Shown here one piece after another: positions 25,029-41,341 of a DNA stretch of 64,000 nt; positions within the stretch are counted from its first letter, which is position 1, and every line of letters starts with the position of its first letter. The notes beneath the pieces are model-generated. The model did not search any database. It was not told the origin of the DNA and saw only the letters and a list, made by a program, of their open reading frames with translations. The translations under genes and the position numbers were made by a program. Origin of the DNA: an uncultured Lysobacterales bacterium (lineage in GTDB: Bacteria > Pseudomonadota > Gammaproteobacteria > Xanthomonadales > SZUA-36); contig CALDVW010000041.1 of the NCBI GenBank assembly GCA_937924405.1, positions 1 to 64,000 on the forward strand. Direction: 5' to 3'.

Positions 25029-28000
25029 ATGACTTCGTCGCAAACGCACGAATATCCGGATGAAAGGCTTTGTGCATTGGTTCCGGTCAAGTCACTGGCG
25101 CGCAGCAAGCAACGGTTGAAGGATTGCCTGGGAGAGGATCGCGGAAACCTGACCATAGCGATGTTGTTGGATGTTCTGGCCGCGCTGAACAGCAGCCTGC
25201 ACGTCGCACAAGTCGTGGTGGTTACCGCGGATTCGCGAGTAGCGGGCATTGCGGCTGATCTCGGTGCAGTGGTGCTCGACGAGGTCGGTTCGAATGGCCA
25301 GTCCAGTGGAATGATTGAAGCCATTGAGCAGGGCGTGGCTTTTATCAGGCGTTCCGGTTGGCCGCGTGTTGCCATCTTTCCGGCGGATATTCCGCTGCTC
25401 ACAGGACCCGAACTGGACCGCCTGTTACTTGAATTGCTCGAGGAACGCCGCGCCAAGGGCGCGGAGATTGTTGCGATCGGTCCGGCGAAAGATAGCGGTG
25501 GCACCAACCTGCTGTGCTTCGACACCCGCCTTAGCTTACCTCTGAAATACGGACCGGGCAGCTGTGACCTTCATGTGGAAAGTGCACTCGCAGTTGGCTG
25601 CCAGCCCTTACTGCTTCATGCACCCGCCCTTTCGCTGGATATCGATGAACAAGAAGACCTTGAAGCTTTTGTCTCGATCTGTATTTCCCAACCTGAATAC
25701 CAGGGAACCGAGACCTGGCGGTTTTTACAGGATAACCGGGGGGAAATGATGAATGAGGTGCCGAGCCCGGATTTCGTTTCGGAGCCCGGACTCACGGATT
25801 TGCTGAAGCTGGATGAGCAGACCGACCTGGCCGACCTGTGCCGAATGGCAAGCACTATCCGCAACCAGGGGCACGGCAATATCGTGACCTACTCGCGTAA
25901 AGTGTTCATTCCATTGACGCGTTTGTGCCGCGATTTCTGCCATTACTGCACTTTCGCCACCAGCCCCAGGCACCTTCCGGCGCCATACATGTCAGCCGAT
26001 GAAGCGGTTTCCATTGCGCAGCAAGGTGCGGCAATGGGGTGTAAAGAGGCGCTGTTTACGCTGGGTGAGAAACCCGAGCTCCGCCATGAAGCAGCCCGTC
26101 AGGGCCTGGCTGATCTGGGTTTCGAGTCTACGCTGGAATATGTCGCTCATGTTGCAGGGCGGGTATTAAAAGAAACCGGCTTACTGCCCCATATCAATGC
26201 CGGCTGCATGACGCCGGCAGAAATTCAGATGCTGCGCCGGGTTTCGGCATCGATGGGCATCATGGTTGAGAGCGTTTCCGAGCGATTGTGCGAAAAAGGG
26301 CAAGTTCATTATGGATCGCCTGACAAGCATCCCGCAGCAAGGCTGCAAACCATTGCCGATGCAGGTCGGGCGAGAGTCCCGTTCACTACTGGCATCCTGA
26401 TTGGTATCGGGGAAACCAGGCGGGAAAGACTGGATTCACTGCTTGCGATCAGGGAGCTTCATCGGGAATTTGGTCATATCCAGGAAGTGATCGTGCAGAA
26501 TTTTGTGCCCAAGGCGGATACCAAGATGGCAAGCGTCGAGCCGCCGGGTACCGATGAGTTGCTATGGACGATAGCCATGGCGCGAATCATTTTCGGGCCC
26601 GGAATGAGTATCCAGGCGCCGCCGAACCTGAGCCCGGGGAAGCTACGGCCGCTGGTGGGAGCGGGTATCAACGATTGGGGCGGCGTGTCGCCCCTGACGC
26701 CCGATCATGTCAACCCGGAATCACCCTGGCCCCAGCTCGATAGACTCAGCGCTGAAACTGCACTGACCGGCAAATTATTGCAGCAGCGGTTGACTATCTA
26801 CCCGGATTACGCCACCGCGCCGAACCAGTGGCTGGATAGCCGGATGATCGGTCCGGTTCTGAAACTGGCCGATAGCTACGGGCTGGCTCGAGAAGACGAC
26901 TGGCTCAGTGGAACCTCGATTAAAATTCCTGAAAAATTCACTTTTGCGCCGCTCACTGCGCATGCAGAAGCTAGCCATTCAGCAGTATCGAGCGATATTC
27001 GAGCCGTTTTGGATGACGCGCAAGAGAAAAATCACGTATTCAGTGTGAGTGACATCAGCCGCCTGTTCAATGCACGTGGCGGAGATTTCATTGCCGTTTG
27101 CCAGGCCGCGGACCGGATGCGGAGTTCGCATTGTGGCGAAGCCGTCAGTTACGTAGTCAACCGGAATATCAATTACACGAACATTTGCACGTATCGCTGC
27201 AAATTCTGCGCTTTTGCCAAGGGCAAAAAGAACACAGCGGCCAGTGATGCGCCTTATTTGAAAAGCCCGCAGGAAGTGGGCCAGCTGGCCATCGAAGCCT
27301 GGCAGCGAGGGGCGACTGAAGTTTGTCTGCAAGGTGGCATTCACCCCTCGTTTACAGGTCAGACTTACATTGATATCTGTTCTGCTGTGAACCAGGCGCT
27401 ACCGGAAATGCACATCCATGCATTCTCGCCCCTTGAAGTCACTCATGGCGCTGAATCGCTGGGCATTTCGGTCAGGGAATTTCTCACTGAACTGAAAAAG
27501 GCGGGTCTCAAAACTCTTCCGGGCACCGCAGCCGAAATTCTCAGTGACGACGTTCGTGCGGAAATTTGCCCTGACAAGCTCAATACCAGGCAATGGCTGG
27601 ACGTGGTCGGAACAGCGCATGATCTGGGCCTGTCCACCACTGCAACGATTATGTTCGGGCATGTAGACCGTTATGAGCACTGGGCAACGCACCTTCTTCG
27701 CATTCTGGAATTGCAGCGACGTTCAGGTGGTATCACGGAATTCGTGCCTTTGCCGTTCGTGGCTGATGAAGCGCCCATTTACCGGCGCGGTCAGTCCCGC
27801 CGCGGGCCGACGCTGAGAGAATCCGTCCTGATGCACGCTGTGTCGAGGCTCGTTCTGTCGCCACATATCAGGAATGTTCAGACATCGTGGGTGAAGATGG
27901 GCCTGGAAGGCGCAGCCCTCTGTCTACAGGCCGGAGCCAACGACCTGGGCGGGACTCTCATGAACGAAAGCATCACACGGGCAGCGGGCGCCAGTCATGG

Positions 28001-28241
28001 CCAGGAAATGAAGCCGGAGATCCTCGAAGGAGTGATCGCTTCCTGTCACCGCCTGCCCTATCAGCGCAATACCTTCTATGAACCGGTCGAATCGCGGACA
28101 CCTGCCGGGCTGTCAGCTGAAATCGATATTATCGGCAGCGCTTATACCGACTTTTACGGGAGTCCGTTCCGTGAACGGCCAATAACAATACTTACTGAAT
28201 CGTCAGCGCATTATCCAGCATCAGTTCGGCGCCATTCATGA
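25029..28241 (+). CDS. Trifunctional CofC-CofG-CofH fusion (F420 side-chain activation and Fo synthase)
   Basis: One uninterrupted 1070-residue frame carries three F420 enzymes. Residues about 12-225 are CofC, the guanylyltransferase: LVPVKSLARSKQRL, FPADIPLLTGPELD, AKDSGGTNLL and LDIDEQEDLEAF. Residues about 245-610 are CofG, with radical-SAM cysteines C300-C304-C307 in CRDFCHYC. Residues about 670-1060 are CofH, with C720-C724-C727 in CTYRCKFC, then QGGIHPSFTGQ and LPGTAAEIL. CofG and CofH together make Fo from tyrosine and the ribityl pyrimidine, as FbiC does. CofC fused in front is the unusual part. GGGGGGAA just before two in-frame ATGs (25746 and 25749, M240/M241) could allow separate translation of the CofGH part. 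The last 50 bases overlap the convergent SDR gene. Confidence 0.95.
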   Translation: MTSSQTHEYPDERLCALVPVKSLARSKQRLKDCLGEDRGNLTIAMLLDVLAALNSSLHVAQVVVVTADSRVAGIAADLGAVVLDEVGSNGQSSGMIEAIEQGVAFIRRSGWPRVAIFPADIPLLTGPELDRLLLELLEERRAKGAEIVAIGPAKDSGGTNLLCFDTRLSLPLKYGPGSCDLHVESALAVGCQPLLLHAPALSLDIDEQEDLEAFVSICISQPEYQGTETWRFLQDNRGEMMNEVPSPDFVSEPGLTDLLKLDEQTDLADLCRMASTIRNQGHGNIVTYSRKVFIPLTRLCRDFCHYCTFATSPRHLPAPYMSADEAVSIAQQGAAMGCKEALFTLGEKPELRHEAARQGLADLGFESTLEYVAHVAGRVLKETGLLPHINAGCMTPAEIQMLRRVSASMGIMVESVSERLCEKGQVHYGSPDKHPAARLQTIADAGRARVPFTTGILIGIGETRRERLDSLLAIRELHREFGHIQEVIVQNFVPKADTKMASVEPPGTDELLWTIAMARIIFGPGMSIQAPPNLSPGKLRPLVGAGINDWGGVSPLTPDHVNPESPWPQLDRLSAETALTGKLLQQRLTIYPDYATAPNQWLDSRMIGPVLKLADSYGLAREDDWLSGTSIKIPEKFTFAPLTAHAEASHSAVSSDIRAVLDDAQEKNHVFSVSDISRLFNARGGDFIAVCQAADRMRSSHCGEAVSYVVNRNINYTNICTYRCKFCAFAKGKKNTAASDAPYLKSPQEVGQLAIEAWQRGATEVCLQGGIHPSFTGQTYIDICSAVNQALPEMHIHAFSPLEVTHGAESLGISVREFLTELKKAGLKTLPGTAAEILSDDVRAEICPDKLNTRQWLDVVGTAHDLGLSTTATIMFGHVDRYEHWATHLLRILELQRRSGGITEFVPLPFVADEAPIYRRGQSRRGPTLRESVLMHAVSRLVLSPHIRNVQTSWVKMGLEGAALCLQAGANDLGGTLMNESITRAAGASHGQEMKPEILEGVIASCHRLPYQRNTFYEPVESRTPAGLSAEIDIIGSAYTDFYGSPFRERPITILTESSAHYPASVRRHS

Positions 28242-34647: not shown

Positions 34648-34676
34648 TCCGGTCTTTAAAGGCACTTGGCAGTGCG

Positions 34677-34704
34677 CCCCCGGTTCGCATAGACCGGGGG
34701 TTTT
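34677..34704 (+). terminator. Rho-independent terminator after ppk2
   Basis: CCCCCGGT (34677-34684) and ACCGGGGG (34693-34700) form a perfect 8-base-pair GC-rich stem with an 8-base loop, directly followed by TTTT. It is the clearest intrinsic terminator in the window, 30 bases after the ppk2 stop. Confidence 0.85.
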
Positions 34705-34834: not shown

Positions 34835-37165
34835 ATGTCATACGCACTCAATTTGAAAGATCGTGGTATCGAGTTCATTCTTCTCGACCCCAATCACTGC
34901 CCGGAGCTTTCCACCGGGGATGACGACAGCCTGGAATTTCTCGATCTTTGTTACAGAACACTCTGTGCGGTCATGTTCAACCACGCATCATCAGGGCATC
35001 CGGGTGGAAGTGTTTCCAGCGGCAGAATCGTCGAATCGTTGCTCTTCAACCAGATGAAGTACGACATCTCCGACCCCATGGACCGGACCGCCGATATTAT
35101 TTCATACGCTGCGGGCCACAAGGCGTTGGGTCTCTATGCCATGTGGGCCTGCCGGAATGAAGCGGTTCGGCAGCATGCGCCCGACCTTCTGCCGGAAGTC
35201 CGCCAGCAACTCAGGCTGGAAGACCTGCTTGGATTTCGCAAGAACCCCATTACGAAAACACCCCTGTTCCTGGAGCACGATGCCAAACCGCTGGATGGTC
35301 ATCCAACGCCACAAACGCCGTTTGTCTGGCTGTCCACCGGGCCCAGCGGTGTGGGTGTAGCCGGCTCTGTGGGCCTGGCTTTAACCCTTAAAGATATGCA
35401 TGGTGATCAGGCGCCCGATGTACATGTCATCGAGGGAGAGGGCGGAATGACTCCGGGCCGGGTGGCCGAAGCACTGGCCTCGGCCGCAACTTCCGGCCTG
35501 GACAATTTTTACTTCCACGTTGACTGGAACCAGTCTTCAATTGACTCTGATGCGGTGACCCGCGAAGAAGGAAAGGCAGGTGAGTACGTCCAGTGGGATC
35601 CGTGCGAGTTCCTGCTGATGCACGGATTCAACGTGATTTACGTACCGGACGGTTTTGATTTTGCGCAGATACGTGAAGCTCAGAAAAAAGCCCTTGCTCT
35701 CAACAACGGACGTCCCACGGGCATCGTTTACCGGACCATCAAGGGGTGGAAATACGGTATCGAAGGCTGCAAGTCCCACGGCGCCGGCCACAAATTTTAC
35801 AGTGACCAATACCTCGCTGCGGTGGAACCTTTTGAACAGGCGCTGGGATTGACATTTCCCCGGTTCGGAGCTGAAAAAACTCCCGAGAACATCGAGAAGG
35901 CATATTTCGAGTCCTTGCTGACGATCCGCCGGGCTTTTGAAGCCAACCCTGAGCTGACCGCCAGACTGGCCGGCTGGATCGCAGATAGCGGGAAGCGGTT
36001 GGCATCATCTCCCAGGGGGTTTCGGGCCGAGGCCCCCGACTTGCAGCAATTATATGAAGTCAACGCCATCTCGGCGCTGGCGCGTCCCGGGTCCTGCACA
36101 TACGAAACCGGTTCCGCCCAGACGCTGCGCGGCAGCCTGAGCCACTGCCTGAATCATGTCAACAAGCTCACCAATGGCGCGGTACTCGCAGCAGCAGCCG
36201 ACCTCTACGGCTCGACCAATGTGGCCGGTATCAGTTCGGGCTTTGGCTCAGGCTTTTGGCATCCCAGGAATAATCCCGAATCCCGGCTGTTTTCGGCCGG
36301 TGGAATTACCGAAGACGCCATGGGCGGGATCTGTTCTGGTATCGCGAGCATGGGATATGAAATCGGTGTCGGCTCTTCATATGGAGCATTCATAGCCCCG
36401 CTCAATACCATTAGCGCCAAAACCCACGGTATCGGACAGCAGACCCTCAGGCACCGCGCGCCGGATGAGCCGAACAGGACGTTCGTCATTGTTTGCGGAC
36501 ATGCGGGTGTCAAAACCGGCGAGGATGGCCCCACGCATGCCGAACCGCAGGCACTGCAGGTTTTGCAGGAAAACTTCCCGGGTGATGTCATGATTACGCT
36601 AACACCCTGGGATCCCAACGAACTCTGGCCCTTGACAGTCGAAGCGCTCCTGCAGCGCCCGGCCGTGATCGCACCTTATGTGACACGCCCCTCGGAGATC
36701 ATTGTAGATCGCGAAGCCCTGGGGTTGGCTGCACCCGAGCAATCCGTAAAAGGTGTATACAAGTTGCTGCAGGCCAACGGCAAGCCGGACGCCTCGATCA
36801 TTTACCAGGGCAGCGACGTGGGTTACGCCTTCGTCAGCGGAGTCCTGCCCAGGCTGAAGGAGAAAGGTATCAACCTCGATGTCTATTACATTTCCAGCGT
36901 GGAACTGTTCGATCGTCTCGACGCTCAGGAAAGAAACGATATCTATCCGTCTTCAGTCGCCGCATCAGCCATGATGTTCTCCGGTTTTACGGCCGCCACG
37001 ACGTATCGCTGGACCATGTCCGAACGAGGCAGGGAATTTACGCACTATCCCTGGAAGCATGGTTTCTTTCTGGGAAGCGGTCCCGGTGACGTGTGCCTTG
37101 AACAGTCGGGCATGCACGCCGAGGCGCAATGGGAGATTATCCAGAAATTCATAGCAGGTAAATAA
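34835..37165 (+). CDS. Atypical transketolase/pyruvate dehydrogenase E1-family thiamine diphosphate enzyme
   Basis: This 776-residue thiamine diphosphate enzyme has transketolase landmarks: SGHPGGS (residues 53-59), GHKALGLYA, LSTGPSGVGVAGSVGLAL, and GEDGPTHAEPQ with E563 and H568. The cofactor and magnesium motif is changed: GEG at 201-203 in place of GDG, with D230-W-N232 further on. The segment YRTIKGWKYG resembles homodimeric pyruvate dehydrogenase E1. It is longer than ordinary transketolases (about 660 residues). The start follows GAAGGATTCTCCG. It lies 35 bases ahead of the GcvT-SHMT fusion gene, so the two are probably one operon. It may transfer a two-carbon ketol unit in one-carbon or glycine metabolism, but the substrate is unknown. 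Confidence 0.82.
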   Translation: MSYALNLKDRGIEFILLDPNHCPELSTGDDDSLEFLDLCYRTLCAVMFNHASSGHPGGSVSSGRIVESLLFNQMKYDISDPMDRTADIISYAAGHKALGLYAMWACRNEAVRQHAPDLLPEVRQQLRLEDLLGFRKNPITKTPLFLEHDAKPLDGHPTPQTPFVWLSTGPSGVGVAGSVGLALTLKDMHGDQAPDVHVIEGEGGMTPGRVAEALASAATSGLDNFYFHVDWNQSSIDSDAVTREEGKAGEYVQWDPCEFLLMHGFNVIYVPDGFDFAQIREAQKKALALNNGRPTGIVYRTIKGWKYGIEGCKSHGAGHKFYSDQYLAAVEPFEQALGLTFPRFGAEKTPENIEKAYFESLLTIRRAFEANPELTARLAGWIADSGKRLASSPRGFRAEAPDLQQLYEVNAISALARPGSCTYETGSAQTLRGSLSHCLNHVNKLTNGAVLAAAADLYGSTNVAGISSGFGSGFWHPRNNPESRLFSAGGITEDAMGGICSGIASMGYEIGVGSSYGAFIAPLNTISAKTHGIGQQTLRHRAPDEPNRTFVIVCGHAGVKTGEDGPTHAEPQALQVLQENFPGDVMITLTPWDPNELWPLTVEALLQRPAVIAPYVTRPSEIIVDREALGLAAPEQSVKGVYKLLQANGKPDASIIYQGSDVGYAFVSGVLPRLKEKGINLDVYYISSVELFDRLDAQERNDIYPSSVAASAMMFSGFTAATTYRWTMSERGREFTHYPWKHGFFLGSGPGDVCLEQSGMHAEAQWEIIQKFIAGK

Positions 37166-37200
37166 TTTCAACCTCATCGGCAGTTCGGAGGAGTAGATTC

Positions 37201-39846
37201 GTGGGTGAGTCAAAAAAAACGGTTTTTTATGATTCGCATGTGAAGCTCGGGGCCAAATTAACCGAGTTCAGCGGCTGGGATAAACCACTGCAGTACCCAA
37301 CGGGAATCATGCAGGAACACCTGGCGACACGGAAACAGGCCGGTCTGTTCGATGTGTCCCATATGGGCCGGTTCGTTATCAGTGGAAAGGAAGCCCTGCC
37401 GTTTCTCCAATACGTGTTGACAAACAATGCGGCAAGCCTTGATGTCGGCCTGGGTCAATACACGATGATCCCCAATGCATCGGGCGGTGTGATCGACGAC
37501 GCCTACCTTTACCGTTTTGTCGAGGATGAATACCTGCTGGTCGTCAATGCCGGCAACCGCGAAAGGGACTGGGATCACCTGGAGAACGAACGCAAGCGCT
37601 TCCCGCGAACCGATATGGTGGACCGGACGCTCGACATTGCCATGCTGAGCCTGCAAGGCCCACGGGCCAAGGAGATTTTATCGGGTATATTCTCGGGCGA
37701 TCTCCCGGAACCCATGAGAAACGAACTCAGCATAGTCGAGTTCGATGGTGGCCAGGTTATGCTTGCGCGGACCGGTTACACCGGTGAACCCATCTGCTTT
37801 GAACTGTTCATCAAACGTAACGAAGCCGTCAAGGTCTGGAACCTGTTGACTGACAAGGGAGCGGTGCCGGCAGGGCTTGGAGCGAGAGATTCCTTGCGCC
37901 TGGAAGCAGGCCTGCCGCTCTATGGGCACGAACTGGGGTTGGACCCGGAGGGTAAGGAAATTCCTGCTTTTGCCTCGGACCTGTCGCGTTTCGCCATCAG
38001 TTTCTCTGAGGTCAAAGGGGACTACATCGGTCGTGAAGCGCTCGAGCTGCAATTCAGGGCGTTGAAAAGCATCCTGGATCAGGATTTTTCCGATATCGGC
38101 GCCCTGCCACAAAGGATATTACTGATTGAACTGTCTGCGCGCGGAATCACGCGCCCCGGAGACAGAGTTTTCCAGGGCGACGACCACGTTGGCTACGTCA
38201 CCAGCGGGACGATGGTGCCATACTGGAAATCGGAAGGTGAGGGCGTCGAGTCACGGTTCGGCACCGAAATCGGCAAGCGGGCGATCGGAATGGCGCTGGT
38301 TTCGAGTGAGCTGTGGGAAGGGGATGAGGTCGAAGTAGAAATTCGGGGGCGCAGAACGCCCGCCACCATCGTGCCCTATTTTCTGCGCGGGGAAGCTCCG
38401 CCTTATGCGCGCCCCATTGTTCATCACGAACCGCAGGAAGATGACGAAACAGCGCCGAAGCGGGGAGCCAGGCAGAAAATAAACGAATTGCTCGATGGTG
38501 CAATCGCCAACACGCGCTGGCGCCAGCAGGATTGTATCAATCTGATTCCCTCGGAAATGTCGCTGTCACCACTGACCAAGTTGCTCTCAATTATGGATCC
38601 GGTTGGCCGCTACGCAGAGCACAAACAGGTAAAGGCGCTTGATGAAGCCGAGGTTTTTTACTACCAGGGCACGGAGTTCATCTGGGAAGTCGAGGAGCTT
38701 TTGAAGCAGGAACTGATGGAATATTTCGGCTGCGCCTCCATCGAAGCTCGACTCATTTCCGGCCAGATGGCCAACATGACGGTTTACAGCGCCATGGTGG
38801 ATTACCTGAACCGCGCTGACCGCAAAAGTGAACAGCGACGGATGCGCAAGGTGATGAATAACCACATCATCAAGGGTGGTCACCTCAGTTCCCAGCCCAT
38901 GGGCGCGCTCAAGGACTATGTTGCCCGGGATCCCCGGACGGAAAAAGCTGCCGTGGTGAACTTTCCGGTGCTGAAGGAAAACCCCTACAGGATTGATACA
39001 AAAGCCACTTTGGAATTAATGGCGGAGCACAAGCCTGAACTCATTATTCTGGGAAAAAGCATGGTATTGCACCCGGAACCTGTTTCAGAGCTGCGCGCAT
39101 TTATCGATGAGCTGGGCCTCGACTGTTTTCTGATGTACGACATGGCGCACGTCCTCGGACTGGTTGGGCCGCATTTTCAGAGCCCTTTCGAGGAAGGCGC
39201 GGACATCGTGACAGGCTCGACACACAAGACATTTTTCGGCACACAGCGCGGGATCATCAGCTCGCGGTTTTCCGAAGACAACACACGCTTTCCGTTCTGG
39301 GAAGCCGTGGAGCGCCGGGCCTTTCCCGGGGCAGTCAGCAACCATCACCTGGGCACACTGGTCGGCCTGCTGATGGCGACCTACGAAATGAACACGTTCA
39401 AAGACGAATATCAGAGAAAGGTCATCAGCAACGCCAGGGCCTTTGCCTGTGCACTGAGGGATTGTGGCCTGGATGTTTCCGGCGACCCCGCCGTTTCTTT
39501 CACCGAAACGCACCAGGTCCTGCTGGATGTCGGTTATTCCAGAGGCCCGCAGTTGGCCAGGCAGCTGGAAGAGAACAACATCGTGGTCAACTATCAGGCA
39601 TCACCTGAAGAAGAAGGCTTTACGGCCTCCGGTTTATTGCGCATGGGTGTGTCTGAAATGACCCGTTTTGGTATGGAAGCAGGCGACTTTGGAGAACTGG
39701 CGGAGCTGATCCGCGACGTCGTCATCGATCAGTCGACGGTCAAGCCCAGGGTGACATCGCTCAGAAAACGATTTCCCGACATGAAGTATTGCTTCACGGA
39801 AGACGAATTCGGGGAGCGTCTCGGGGCATTACATTCTTTGGTTTGA
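37201..39846 (+). CDS. GcvT-like aminomethyltransferase fused to serine hydroxymethyltransferase
   Basis: This 881-residue protein is a fusion of two folate enzymes. Residues about 8-395 are GcvT-like: FYDSHVKLGAKLTEFSGWD, AGLFDVSHMGRF, ARTGYTGEPICFELF, GLGARDSLRLEAGLPLYGHE. After an acidic linker, residues about 420-881 are a divergent serine hydroxymethyltransferase: QQDCINLIPSEMSLSP, and GSTHKTFFGTQRG with K676 as the pyridoxal-phosphate lysine. GcvT-type domains move a methyl or methylene group to tetrahydrofolate, and SHMT passes methylene-tetrahydrofolate to glycine to make serine. The fusion could channel that group directly. GTG 37201 is used because GGAGGAG lies 8 bases upstream. No other glycine cleavage genes are nearby, so the one-carbon donor may not be glycine. 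Confidence 0.9.
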   Translation: MGESKKTVFYDSHVKLGAKLTEFSGWDKPLQYPTGIMQEHLATRKQAGLFDVSHMGRFVISGKEALPFLQYVLTNNAASLDVGLGQYTMIPNASGGVIDDAYLYRFVEDEYLLVVNAGNRERDWDHLENERKRFPRTDMVDRTLDIAMLSLQGPRAKEILSGIFSGDLPEPMRNELSIVEFDGGQVMLARTGYTGEPICFELFIKRNEAVKVWNLLTDKGAVPAGLGARDSLRLEAGLPLYGHELGLDPEGKEIPAFASDLSRFAISFSEVKGDYIGREALELQFRALKSILDQDFSDIGALPQRILLIELSARGITRPGDRVFQGDDHVGYVTSGTMVPYWKSEGEGVESRFGTEIGKRAIGMALVSSELWEGDEVEVEIRGRRTPATIVPYFLRGEAPPYARPIVHHEPQEDDETAPKRGARQKINELLDGAIANTRWRQQDCINLIPSEMSLSPLTKLLSIMDPVGRYAEHKQVKALDEAEVFYYQGTEFIWEVEELLKQELMEYFGCASIEARLISGQMANMTVYSAMVDYLNRADRKSEQRRMRKVMNNHIIKGGHLSSQPMGALKDYVARDPRTEKAAVVNFPVLKENPYRIDTKATLELMAEHKPELIILGKSMVLHPEPVSELRAFIDELGLDCFLMYDMAHVLGLVGPHFQSPFEEGADIVTGSTHKTFFGTQRGIISSRFSEDNTRFPFWEAVERRAFPGAVSNHHLGTLVGLLMATYEMNTFKDEYQRKVISNARAFACALRDCGLDVSGDPAVSFTETHQVLLDVGYSRGPQLARQLEENNIVVNYQASPEEEGFTASGLLRMGVSEMTRFGMEAGDFGELAELIRDVVIDQSTVKPRVTSLRKRFPDMKYCFTEDEFGERLGALHSLV

Positions 39847-39857
39847 GCTACCCCTTT

Positions 39858-41198
39858 TCAAAGCTCCAGGCGAACACCTGATTTGATGAAATCATGGAAG
39901 CCTGCCGCGTCAGCTGACGCGATCCGGATTCTGTCAACAGCTTCAGCGAGATCCGCGGCTCCTGTTGCGATGGACAGGCGCAGGAAATGCTGACCTTCGC
40001 TATCCAGAGCGCCGAAAGAGCGGCGGTCCATGGTGGCGACGTGGTAGCGGTGCAGGAGGAATAGCTGAAACAAAGTTGCCGGGCTGGAATTGCACCGGGT
40101 GCTTTCCTCGAGCGCATCGAATGCAGTCAGTGCCTCGAGGTTTTCGATCACACCCTCAATATTGGGAAAAACATAGAACGCCCCCTTCGGATTTTGGCAG
40201 CGAACGCCTTCGATTTCATTGAGGCCCGTCACCACCTGGTCCCGCCGACGTTGAAATGCATCTCCCATTTCCTGAATGGCCCGGTCGCTTTTTGGTGATT
40301 CCAGCGCAACCCGGGTCGCGATCTGATTGTATGGCGGAATACTGGCGAAATAGTTGATGTTCAGGTTGCGATGGACTTTTGCGTCCGCAATTGTTGGGTA
40401 AACCGCCCAGCCGACCCGGCCGCCGGTCCAGGAGTAGGTTTTCGAAACCGCCGACGCGATAATCGTGCGCTCTTCCATTCCGGGAACCGAGGCGATTGAG
40501 AAATGATCTTCGCCGTCAAACACGATGGCCTCGTAGGCCTCGTCTGAATACACACGCACGTTTGGTGGTGTCTTCTCGAGTATCAATTCGGCCAGTGCAA
40601 CGAGTTGCTCCTGGCTGGCGACTCCCCCGGTCGGGTTGGAAGGGAAATTCAGGTAGATCAGTTTCGTGTGGTCCGAAATGAGTGGCTCGAGCTCATCTGT
40701 TGTGAGTGAGAATCCATGATCTTCGCGCAGGTGGATCGGTACAGGCTTCGCTCCCACGTATGGAATGTAGGACTCGTAAAGTGGGTATCCGGGGGTCGGA
40801 TAGATGATTTCGTCGCCCCGTTCACAGTAGGACTGCTGAGCGAAACCGATCGACGGTCTCGCGCCCGGAAATACGACTACCCGCTCCGGATCAATTTCTT
40901 CCAGCCCCCTGTCCCGGGAGATTTTGCGCGCCAGCGCAGTGCGAAGCTCGGGCATTCCCTGTGGATCGCAATAGGTGGTTTGTCCATCCCTGACGCCCTG
41001 GATCACTGCCTCCGCAATGTGGTCAGGCAGTGGAAAATCGGGCTGCCCCAGGTTGCATCGAATCACCCTGTCAGCGTCCTGCTTTTCTACTTCGAGAATG
41101 CGTGAACCGAATCCAAAGGCTGCTTCGGTGCCCATCAATTGCACCCTTTTTGCAAAAACAGCGGTGCGTGCTGCCGCGTTGCTGTGGCCGTTTCTCAT
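39858..41198 (-). CDS. Class I/II pyridoxal-phosphate aminotransferase
   Basis: This 446-residue fold-type I aminotransferase has LGQPDFPLPDHI, YCDPQGMPELR, PTPGYPLYESYIPYVGA, NFPSNPTGG, YSDEAYEAIVF and the PLP lysine in SAVSKTYSWTGGRVGWAVYP. Family members of this kind transaminate aspartate, alanine or aromatic amino acids. The ATG at 41198 is chosen because TGGAGG lies about 10 bases upstream; TTG 41228 is the longer alternative. It is convergent with the GcvT-SHMT gene, with 11 bases between stops. The region around residues 365-385 (ALEESTRCNSSPATLFQ) is family-typical, but specificity is not clear. Confidence 0.88.
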   Translation of the reverse strand: MRNGHSNAAARTAVFAKRVQLMGTEAAFGFGSRILEVEKQDADRVIRCNLGQPDFPLPDHIAEAVIQGVRDGQTTYCDPQGMPELRTALARKISRDRGLEEIDPERVVVFPGARPSIGFAQQSYCERGDEIIYPTPGYPLYESYIPYVGAKPVPIHLREDHGFSLTTDELEPLISDHTKLIYLNFPSNPTGGVASQEQLVALAELILEKTPPNVRVYSDEAYEAIVFDGEDHFSIASVPGMEERTIIASAVSKTYSWTGGRVGWAVYPTIADAKVHRNLNINYFASIPPYNQIATRVALESPKSDRAIQEMGDAFQRRRDQVVTGLNEIEGVRCQNPKGAFYVFPNIEGVIENLEALTAFDALEESTRCNSSPATLFQLFLLHRYHVATMDRRSFGALDSEGQHFLRLSIATGAADLAEAVDRIRIASADAAGFHDFIKSGVRLEL

Positions 41199-41341
41199 TT
41201 GCAGTGAACCTCCATTGGCTGCATTCAAAATTGTACTTTGGCGGCTGCAGCGGCTAATTGATCTGCGTTAGCCAAGACGTTCGAACAGCAAATCGCACGT
41301 CTGCTCCGCTATACTGCCCGATCATCGAATTGGAGAAGGTC

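Follow-up and report, generated by a model that had tools for sequence, protein, structure and literature searches.

A GEG-type branch of the transketolase superfamily linked to an aminotransferase gene in several bacterial phyla

A 64,000-nucleotide stretch of DNA from an uncultured Lysobacterales bacterium (the window) encodes a transketolase-like thiamine diphosphate (ThDP) enzyme, TKL, which our sequence comparisons assign to a subfamily, so far uncharacterised, of the known transketolase superfamily. A role of the enzyme in serine and hydroxypyruvate metabolism is plausible. The earlier note on this DNA had drawn attention to the metal motif of TKL and to the GcvT-SHMT fusion gene that follows it. 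The more widespread partner, however, is a class-I aminotransferase (AAT) encoded beyond the fusion, and this link is more interesting than the metal motif.

Results

The features of the locus are as follows (positions are those of the window).

34676-34701, + strand: terminator-like hairpin after the PPK2 gene (consensus match only)
34835-37165, + strand: TKL, transketolase-like ThDP enzyme of the GEG subfamily, ATG start, 776 amino acids
35435-35443, + strand: GEG codons, TKL residues 201-203; Glu202 replaces the metal ligand Asp155 of E. coli TktA (by alignment)
36518-36538, + strand: GEDGPTH codons, TKL residues 562-568, including the equivalents of TktA Asp469 and His473 (by alignment)
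37183-37200, + strand: Shine-Dalgarno-like sequence GGAGGAG, preceding the GTG at which the fusion starts
37201-39846, + strand: GcvT-SHMT fusion, 881 amino acids; GcvT at about 1-400, SHMT at about 426-881, PLP lysine K676
39858-41228, - strand: AAT, convergent with the fusion, the conserved partner of TKL

Both motifs described in the earlier note, GEG (in the context VIEGEGGMTPG) and the retained GEDGPTH, are present in the TKL reading frame, and the protein is indeed longer than standard transketolase (776 residues against 663 in TktA), its extra length lying mainly in inserts at about 107-155 and 520-550. The distance of 35 bases to the fusion, which starts with GTG at 37201, was also as reported. 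AAT ends 11 bases past the stop codon of the fusion, on the opposite strand. Because a terminator-like hairpin lies between the PPK2 gene and TKL, in a region with 11 such sites observed and 7.2 expected, TKL and the fusion are probably transcribed as one unit, of which TKL is probably the first gene. The proteins of the locus look soluble. Elsewhere in the window, a single reading frame of 1070 amino acids (25029-28241, + strand) carries CofC, two radical-SAM domains and CofH_C; this CofC-CofG-CofH-like chain points to coenzyme F420 biosynthesis in this gammaproteobacterium.

TKL matched the Pfam domains Transketolase_N (58 bits, cut-off 22) and Transket_pyr (39.5 bits, cut-off 27), and its C-terminal domain scored 23 bits, slightly under the cut-off of 27. 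The NCBIfam transketolase models gave 83-137 bits against cut-offs of 488-788, for example 111.2 bits for TIGR00232 (cut-off 682) and 137.4 for NF004559 (cut-off 488). As these scores lie far below the curated equivalog cut-offs, TKL is best classified as a member of the transketolase superfamily and not as an orthologue of a known transketolase. All sequence matches in the PDB were transketolases, both for the protein (35 of 35) and for the TKL profile (41 of 41). The predicted structure, of moderate confidence (mean pLDDT 71), returned only transketolases among its top 50 Foldseek hits, with TM values of 0.5-0.6. Sequence and model are consistent with a transketolase fold composed of an N-terminal ThDP domain, a pyrimidine-binding domain and a C-terminal domain. 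In a maximum-likelihood tree, 32 TKLs formed one clade (support 100/99) apart from 13 transketolases and five AceE sequences, the latter forming a separate clade of their own (100/100). Long branches meet in this tree, in which the separation of the clade is firm and its sister group is not settled. By these phylogenetic and profile comparisons, the TKL clade is a real, uncharacterised transketolase branch.

The segment like pyruvate dehydrogenase E1 proposed in the earlier note did not withstand comparison. An hhalign run of TKL against the transketolase of its own genome gave a probability of 99.4% (E 6e-22), whereas that against the AceE of the same genome gave 1.6%, and PDH-E1 families were absent from the Pfam and NCBIfam scans of TKL. 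The sole local resemblance to AceE that we saw pairs TIKGWKYGIEG of TKL with TVKGYGMGEAGE of AceE; a similar stretch, KTFKG or KTVKG, occurs in transketolases too in the alignments. These results, together with the transketolase-only profile matches in the PDB, rule out a PDH-E1 affinity.

The GEG motif had been considered an alteration of the usual GDG. It is, however, a property of the whole subfamily, in which the equivalent of TktA Asp155 is Glu in all 32 relatives examined. Fourteen TKLs were aligned residue by residue with TktA. Identical in every one of them (TktA numbering) are the catalytic set Glu411, His26, His66, His100, His261, Asp469 and His473, the sugar-phosphate set Arg358, Ser385, His461 and Arg520, the metal/ThDP residue Asn185, and Arg91 and Asp381. 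Two positions differ from TktA in all 14, Asp155 (Glu) and Leu116 (Ser). The roles of these residues are taken here to be those established from transketolase structures. Given this conservation, the sites for the ketol donor and for phosphate both look intact. GEG is also found in the E1-alpha subunit of human BCKDH (sequence of PDB code 1dtw), a working ThDP enzyme, and by analogy Glu as a metal ligand would be no defect in TKL. This precedent, the presence of GEG in 32 of 32 members and the otherwise intact active site speak against a loss-of-function lesion. TKL is probably a working two-carbon transferase.

The shared GEG and the presence of an aminotransferase as partner might instead point to an E1-like decarboxylase, which would act on a 2-oxo acid that AAT makes from an amino acid and transfer the resulting acyl group to a carrier, lipoyl or another. 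We consider this very improbable, as TKL has no sequence relation to the E1 families, no lipoyl acyltransferase gene is found among its conserved neighbours, and it retains His100, Asp469 and the phosphate residues of transketolase.

TKL was found in 13 of 200 genomes from the order of the window organism, all belonging to one family; a draw of 369 genomes from the class gave no carrier but the genome of the window itself. Outside the class it occurs in 18 of 132 genomes of the Zixibacteria phylum (locus L011 among them), in one of 292 drawn from the Melainabacteria phylum (L014), in one Bacteroidota bin and in one Deltaproteobacterium (Myxococcota in the tree labels). Since the carriers are mostly metagenome bins, single odd placements may be due to misbinning. 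The fusion is present in seven of the 13 TKL genomes of the order, spread over four genera of the one family; it always lies directly after TKL, and all seven genomes also carry AAT. The TKL-fusion pair, whose conservation in relatives mattered to the earlier note, is thus kept in every fusion-bearing genome. AAT relatives (E 1e-60) were found in 13 of the 200 genomes, 12 of which also bear TKL. These counts do not represent independent events, since the carrier genomes share ancestry and the genes lie side by side.

Three arrangements were observed. In the first, TKL and the fusion face a convergent AAT (the window, L003, L004, L008 and L111). In the second, AAT and TKL occur without the fusion (L007/L110, L009, L010/L099, L109, L011, L081, L013, L014 and L016). 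The third, found in G042/L097, is a codirectional run of the three genes in the order AAT, TKL, fusion. AAT adjoins TKL in most carriers of the window's family. TKL has AAT as its immediate upstream neighbour in genus g5, which lacks the fusion, in two Zixibacteria loci (L011 and L081), in both Melainabacteria contigs (L014 and L016) and in L013. No AAT of this clade lies beside most Zixibacteria TKLs or beside those of L012 and L015, and a search at E 1e-60 found none in G201. In the Zixibacteria loci L082, L086 and L087, TKL follows genes for asparaginase II, an HD-domain protein and a tryptophanase/tyrosine-phenol-lyase-like protein; in the first two of these loci, it is followed by genes for a less closely related aminotransferase (37-39% identical) and an alanine-racemase-like protein. 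Beyond AAT, no generally conserved neighbour of TKL was found among the loci compared. The fusion, limited to one family, looks like a later addition.

The window's TKL and fusion are additional to housekeeping copies. Its own genome also encodes an ordinary transketolase (contig C29), an SHMT (contig C64) and, on the same contig as the window (106157-106900), a canonical GcvT, followed by a 128-residue frame that may be gcvH. Another transketolase-type match accompanied TKL in 13 of 14 genomes checked, the exception being G171 (89% complete), with only TKL and an AceE-like match. A role of TKL as stand-in for a missing transketolase is ruled out for its own genome and most others, as is, for its own genome, a role of the fusion as stand-in for a missing SHMT or GcvT.

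Two transketolases are common in many bacteria, and the complete active site, save for the Asp to Glu change, and the varied contexts of TKL in Zixibacteria would be in keeping with an extra isozyme of the pentose phosphate pathway whose neighbours are incidental. We regard this as unlikely. The very deep separation of the clade and the scores far below the transketolase cut-offs speak against it, as do the presence of a further transketolase in almost all genomes checked and the recurrence, in different phyla, of one kind of aminotransferase gene linked to TKL.

The AAT genes themselves were compared by pairwise identities. Window-type AATs are only 53-57% identical to AATs of the other type, whereas identities of 77-82% separate the TKLs of the family, which suggests that one AAT has been replaced by another of the same kind beside TKL. 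Such a swap argues that the aminotransferase activity itself is needed. The nearest named relatives of AAT include aspartate transaminases. One genome devoid of TKL at E 1e-100 (G004) has an AAT of the window type (80% identity), and 170 bases away, on the same strand, lies a reductase homologue. The best PDB and NCBIfam matches of this homologue are glyoxylate reductase, with the glyoxylate/hydroxypyruvate reductase GhrB also scoring high; the NCBIfam score is below cut-off (379 against 455 bits), and the arrangement comes from a single genome. This context fits an AAT that would produce glyoxylate or hydroxypyruvate.

The GcvT half of the fusion, judged by its visible motifs, keeps IDD and GLGARD, and scored 312 bits with NF001567 (cut-off 300) and 269 bits with TIGR00528 (cut-off 236). 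The SHMT half, judged against E. coli GlyA, keeps the equivalents of K229, H126, D200, H203, H228, S35, Y55, E57, Y65 and R363. Its closest solved structure is an SHMT of the Methanocaldococcus type (PDB code 4bhd), and the second a threonine aldolase (PDB code 7k34). Three positions are altered, S99 to Q, N347 of the folate site to Q and R372 to F, and with these changes the half might instead work as an aldolase or transaldolase. The fluorothreonine-transaldolase model gave 139 bits against a cut-off of 650.

Besides the canonical GcvT and the fusion, the window's own genome encodes about eight GcvT-domain proteins, in frames of 392-1053 amino acids on contigs C24, C46, C48, C50, C74, C80 and C109. 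Three of the frames (821, 822 and 1053 amino acids) have the size of dimethylglycine- and sarcosine-oxidising enzymes. This richness suggests that methylated amines or similar compounds are used extensively, and glycine and CH2-THF may be abundant in these genomes. Near the AAT-TKL genes of G127 (L110, 8828-14000) are genes resembling trimethylamine methyltransferase, the betaine-type corrinoid protein MtgC, methyl-THF:corrinoid methyltransferase and a corrinoid activator.

One-carbon genes near TKL (GcvT and SHMT, and the corrinoid methyltransferase genes of G127) would suit an enzyme like dihydroxyacetone synthase, fixing formaldehyde released by one-carbon metabolism. Such genes are, however, no general partners of TKL, and no specific likeness to dihydroxyacetone synthase was seen in the comparisons made; we hold this reading to be very improbable.

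Discussion

The TKL subfamily, its retained residues, its gene linkage and its paralogy to housekeeping copies are observed. The best explanation that we can offer for the whole, held tentatively, is that of a competent GEG transketolase fed with hydroxypyruvate by AAT and, where the fusion is present, with serine by the fusion. TKL would be catalytically active with ThDP, would have Glu in the place of Asp among the ligands of Mg, and would move a two-carbon ketol group onto a phosphorylated aldose. The probable donor here would be hydroxypyruvate, long known to serve transketolase as an irreversible ketol donor, whose decarboxylation would make the transfer irreversible. AAT would convert serine to hydroxypyruvate, and an SHMT next to these two enzymes would be placed to form or cleave serine. 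The GcvT part of the fusion would load or hold CH2-THF, from a one-carbon source such as methylated glycines or the glycine cleavage system, and the SHMT part would join it to glycine to give serine. The net route would thus run from glycine and a one-carbon unit through serine and hydroxypyruvate to a ketose phosphate and CO2. Activity, donor and acceptor, this direction and any channelling are what we infer from the patterns described.

The AAT-TKL-fusion run of G042, the cross-phylum linkage of AAT and the kept PLP and serine residues of the SHMT half were counted in favour of this serine/hydroxypyruvate route. So were the transketolase sequence and retained residues of TKL, its co-occurrence with AAT in the order, the apparent swap of one AAT for another, the reductase gene near AAT in G004, the GcvT-domain proteins of the window's own genome, the methyltransferase-like genes of G127 and the serine transaminase and transketolase cascade in vitro. 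Against it stand the orientation of AAT in the window, convergent and not codirectional with the TKL-fusion pair, and the fact that its substrate cannot be read from the sequence, with aspartate transaminases among its nearest named relatives. The reductase link, seen in G004 alone, and the altered positions of the SHMT half also count against it. As most Zixibacteria TKLs and those of L012, L015 and G201 are without such an AAT, the general role of the subfamily need not involve serine. We regard the route as possible, though less likely than not. That the fusion, AAT and TKL make up a natural assimilation or salvage module irreversibly joining C1/glycine metabolism to the pentose phosphate pathway seems to us rather unlikely. 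Of the earlier proposal, which derived a glycine- and serine-linked route from the TKL-fusion pair, the compatibility with the gene content stands; the proposal was incomplete and missed the wider partner, AAT.

TKL might, on the other hand, be specialised for an unusual ketose or keto acid, of which AAT would make or consume the aminated form, the substrate then not being serine. The long isolated branch, the many residues invariant within the subfamily and the inserts around the active site would suit such a specialisation, as would the position of TKL in L082 and L086 between a tryptophanase/tyrosine-phenol-lyase-like gene and an aminotransferase gene. However, TKL keeps unaltered the residues by which the ordinary donor and phosphate sites are defined, and conserved sugar-modifying genes beside TKL are absent from the neighbourhoods compared, so that we consider this reading somewhat unlikely.

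If the serine/hydroxypyruvate route is correct, it would define a multi-phylum transketolase subfamily that had no assigned function, provide a naturally linked counterpart of the serine-transaminase/transketolase pair that chemists had to build, and constitute a second bacterial entry of serine carbon into central metabolism besides the reduction of hydroxypyruvate to glycerate. A search of the open-access literature returned nothing relevant on a GcvT-SHMT fusion or a transketolase-aminotransferase operon.

Comparison with known systems

TKL resembles TktA and TktB (EC 2.2.1.1) in fold, domain order, the catalytic His/Glu/Asp set, the phosphate-binding Arg/Ser/His set and the GEDGPTH motif. 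It differs from them in being only about 25-30% identical, in having GEG for GDG in all members, in its two inserts and in its aminotransferase partner. GEG for GDG in the ThDP metal motif is shared with human BCKDHA (PDB code 1dtw), from which TKL differs in subunit architecture and to which we found no further specific similarity. The fusion keeps the core residues of GcvT (T-protein) and of SHMT/GlyA in its respective halves but, unlike either, joins both in one chain. A cascade of serine transaminase and transketolase functions in vitro (PMC8719814), and the reaction pair proposed for AAT and TKL would be the same, serine to hydroxypyruvate followed by ketol transfer. In the engineered cascade, separate enzymes were combined, whereas the TKL and AAT genes are naturally linked and their substrates are predicted.
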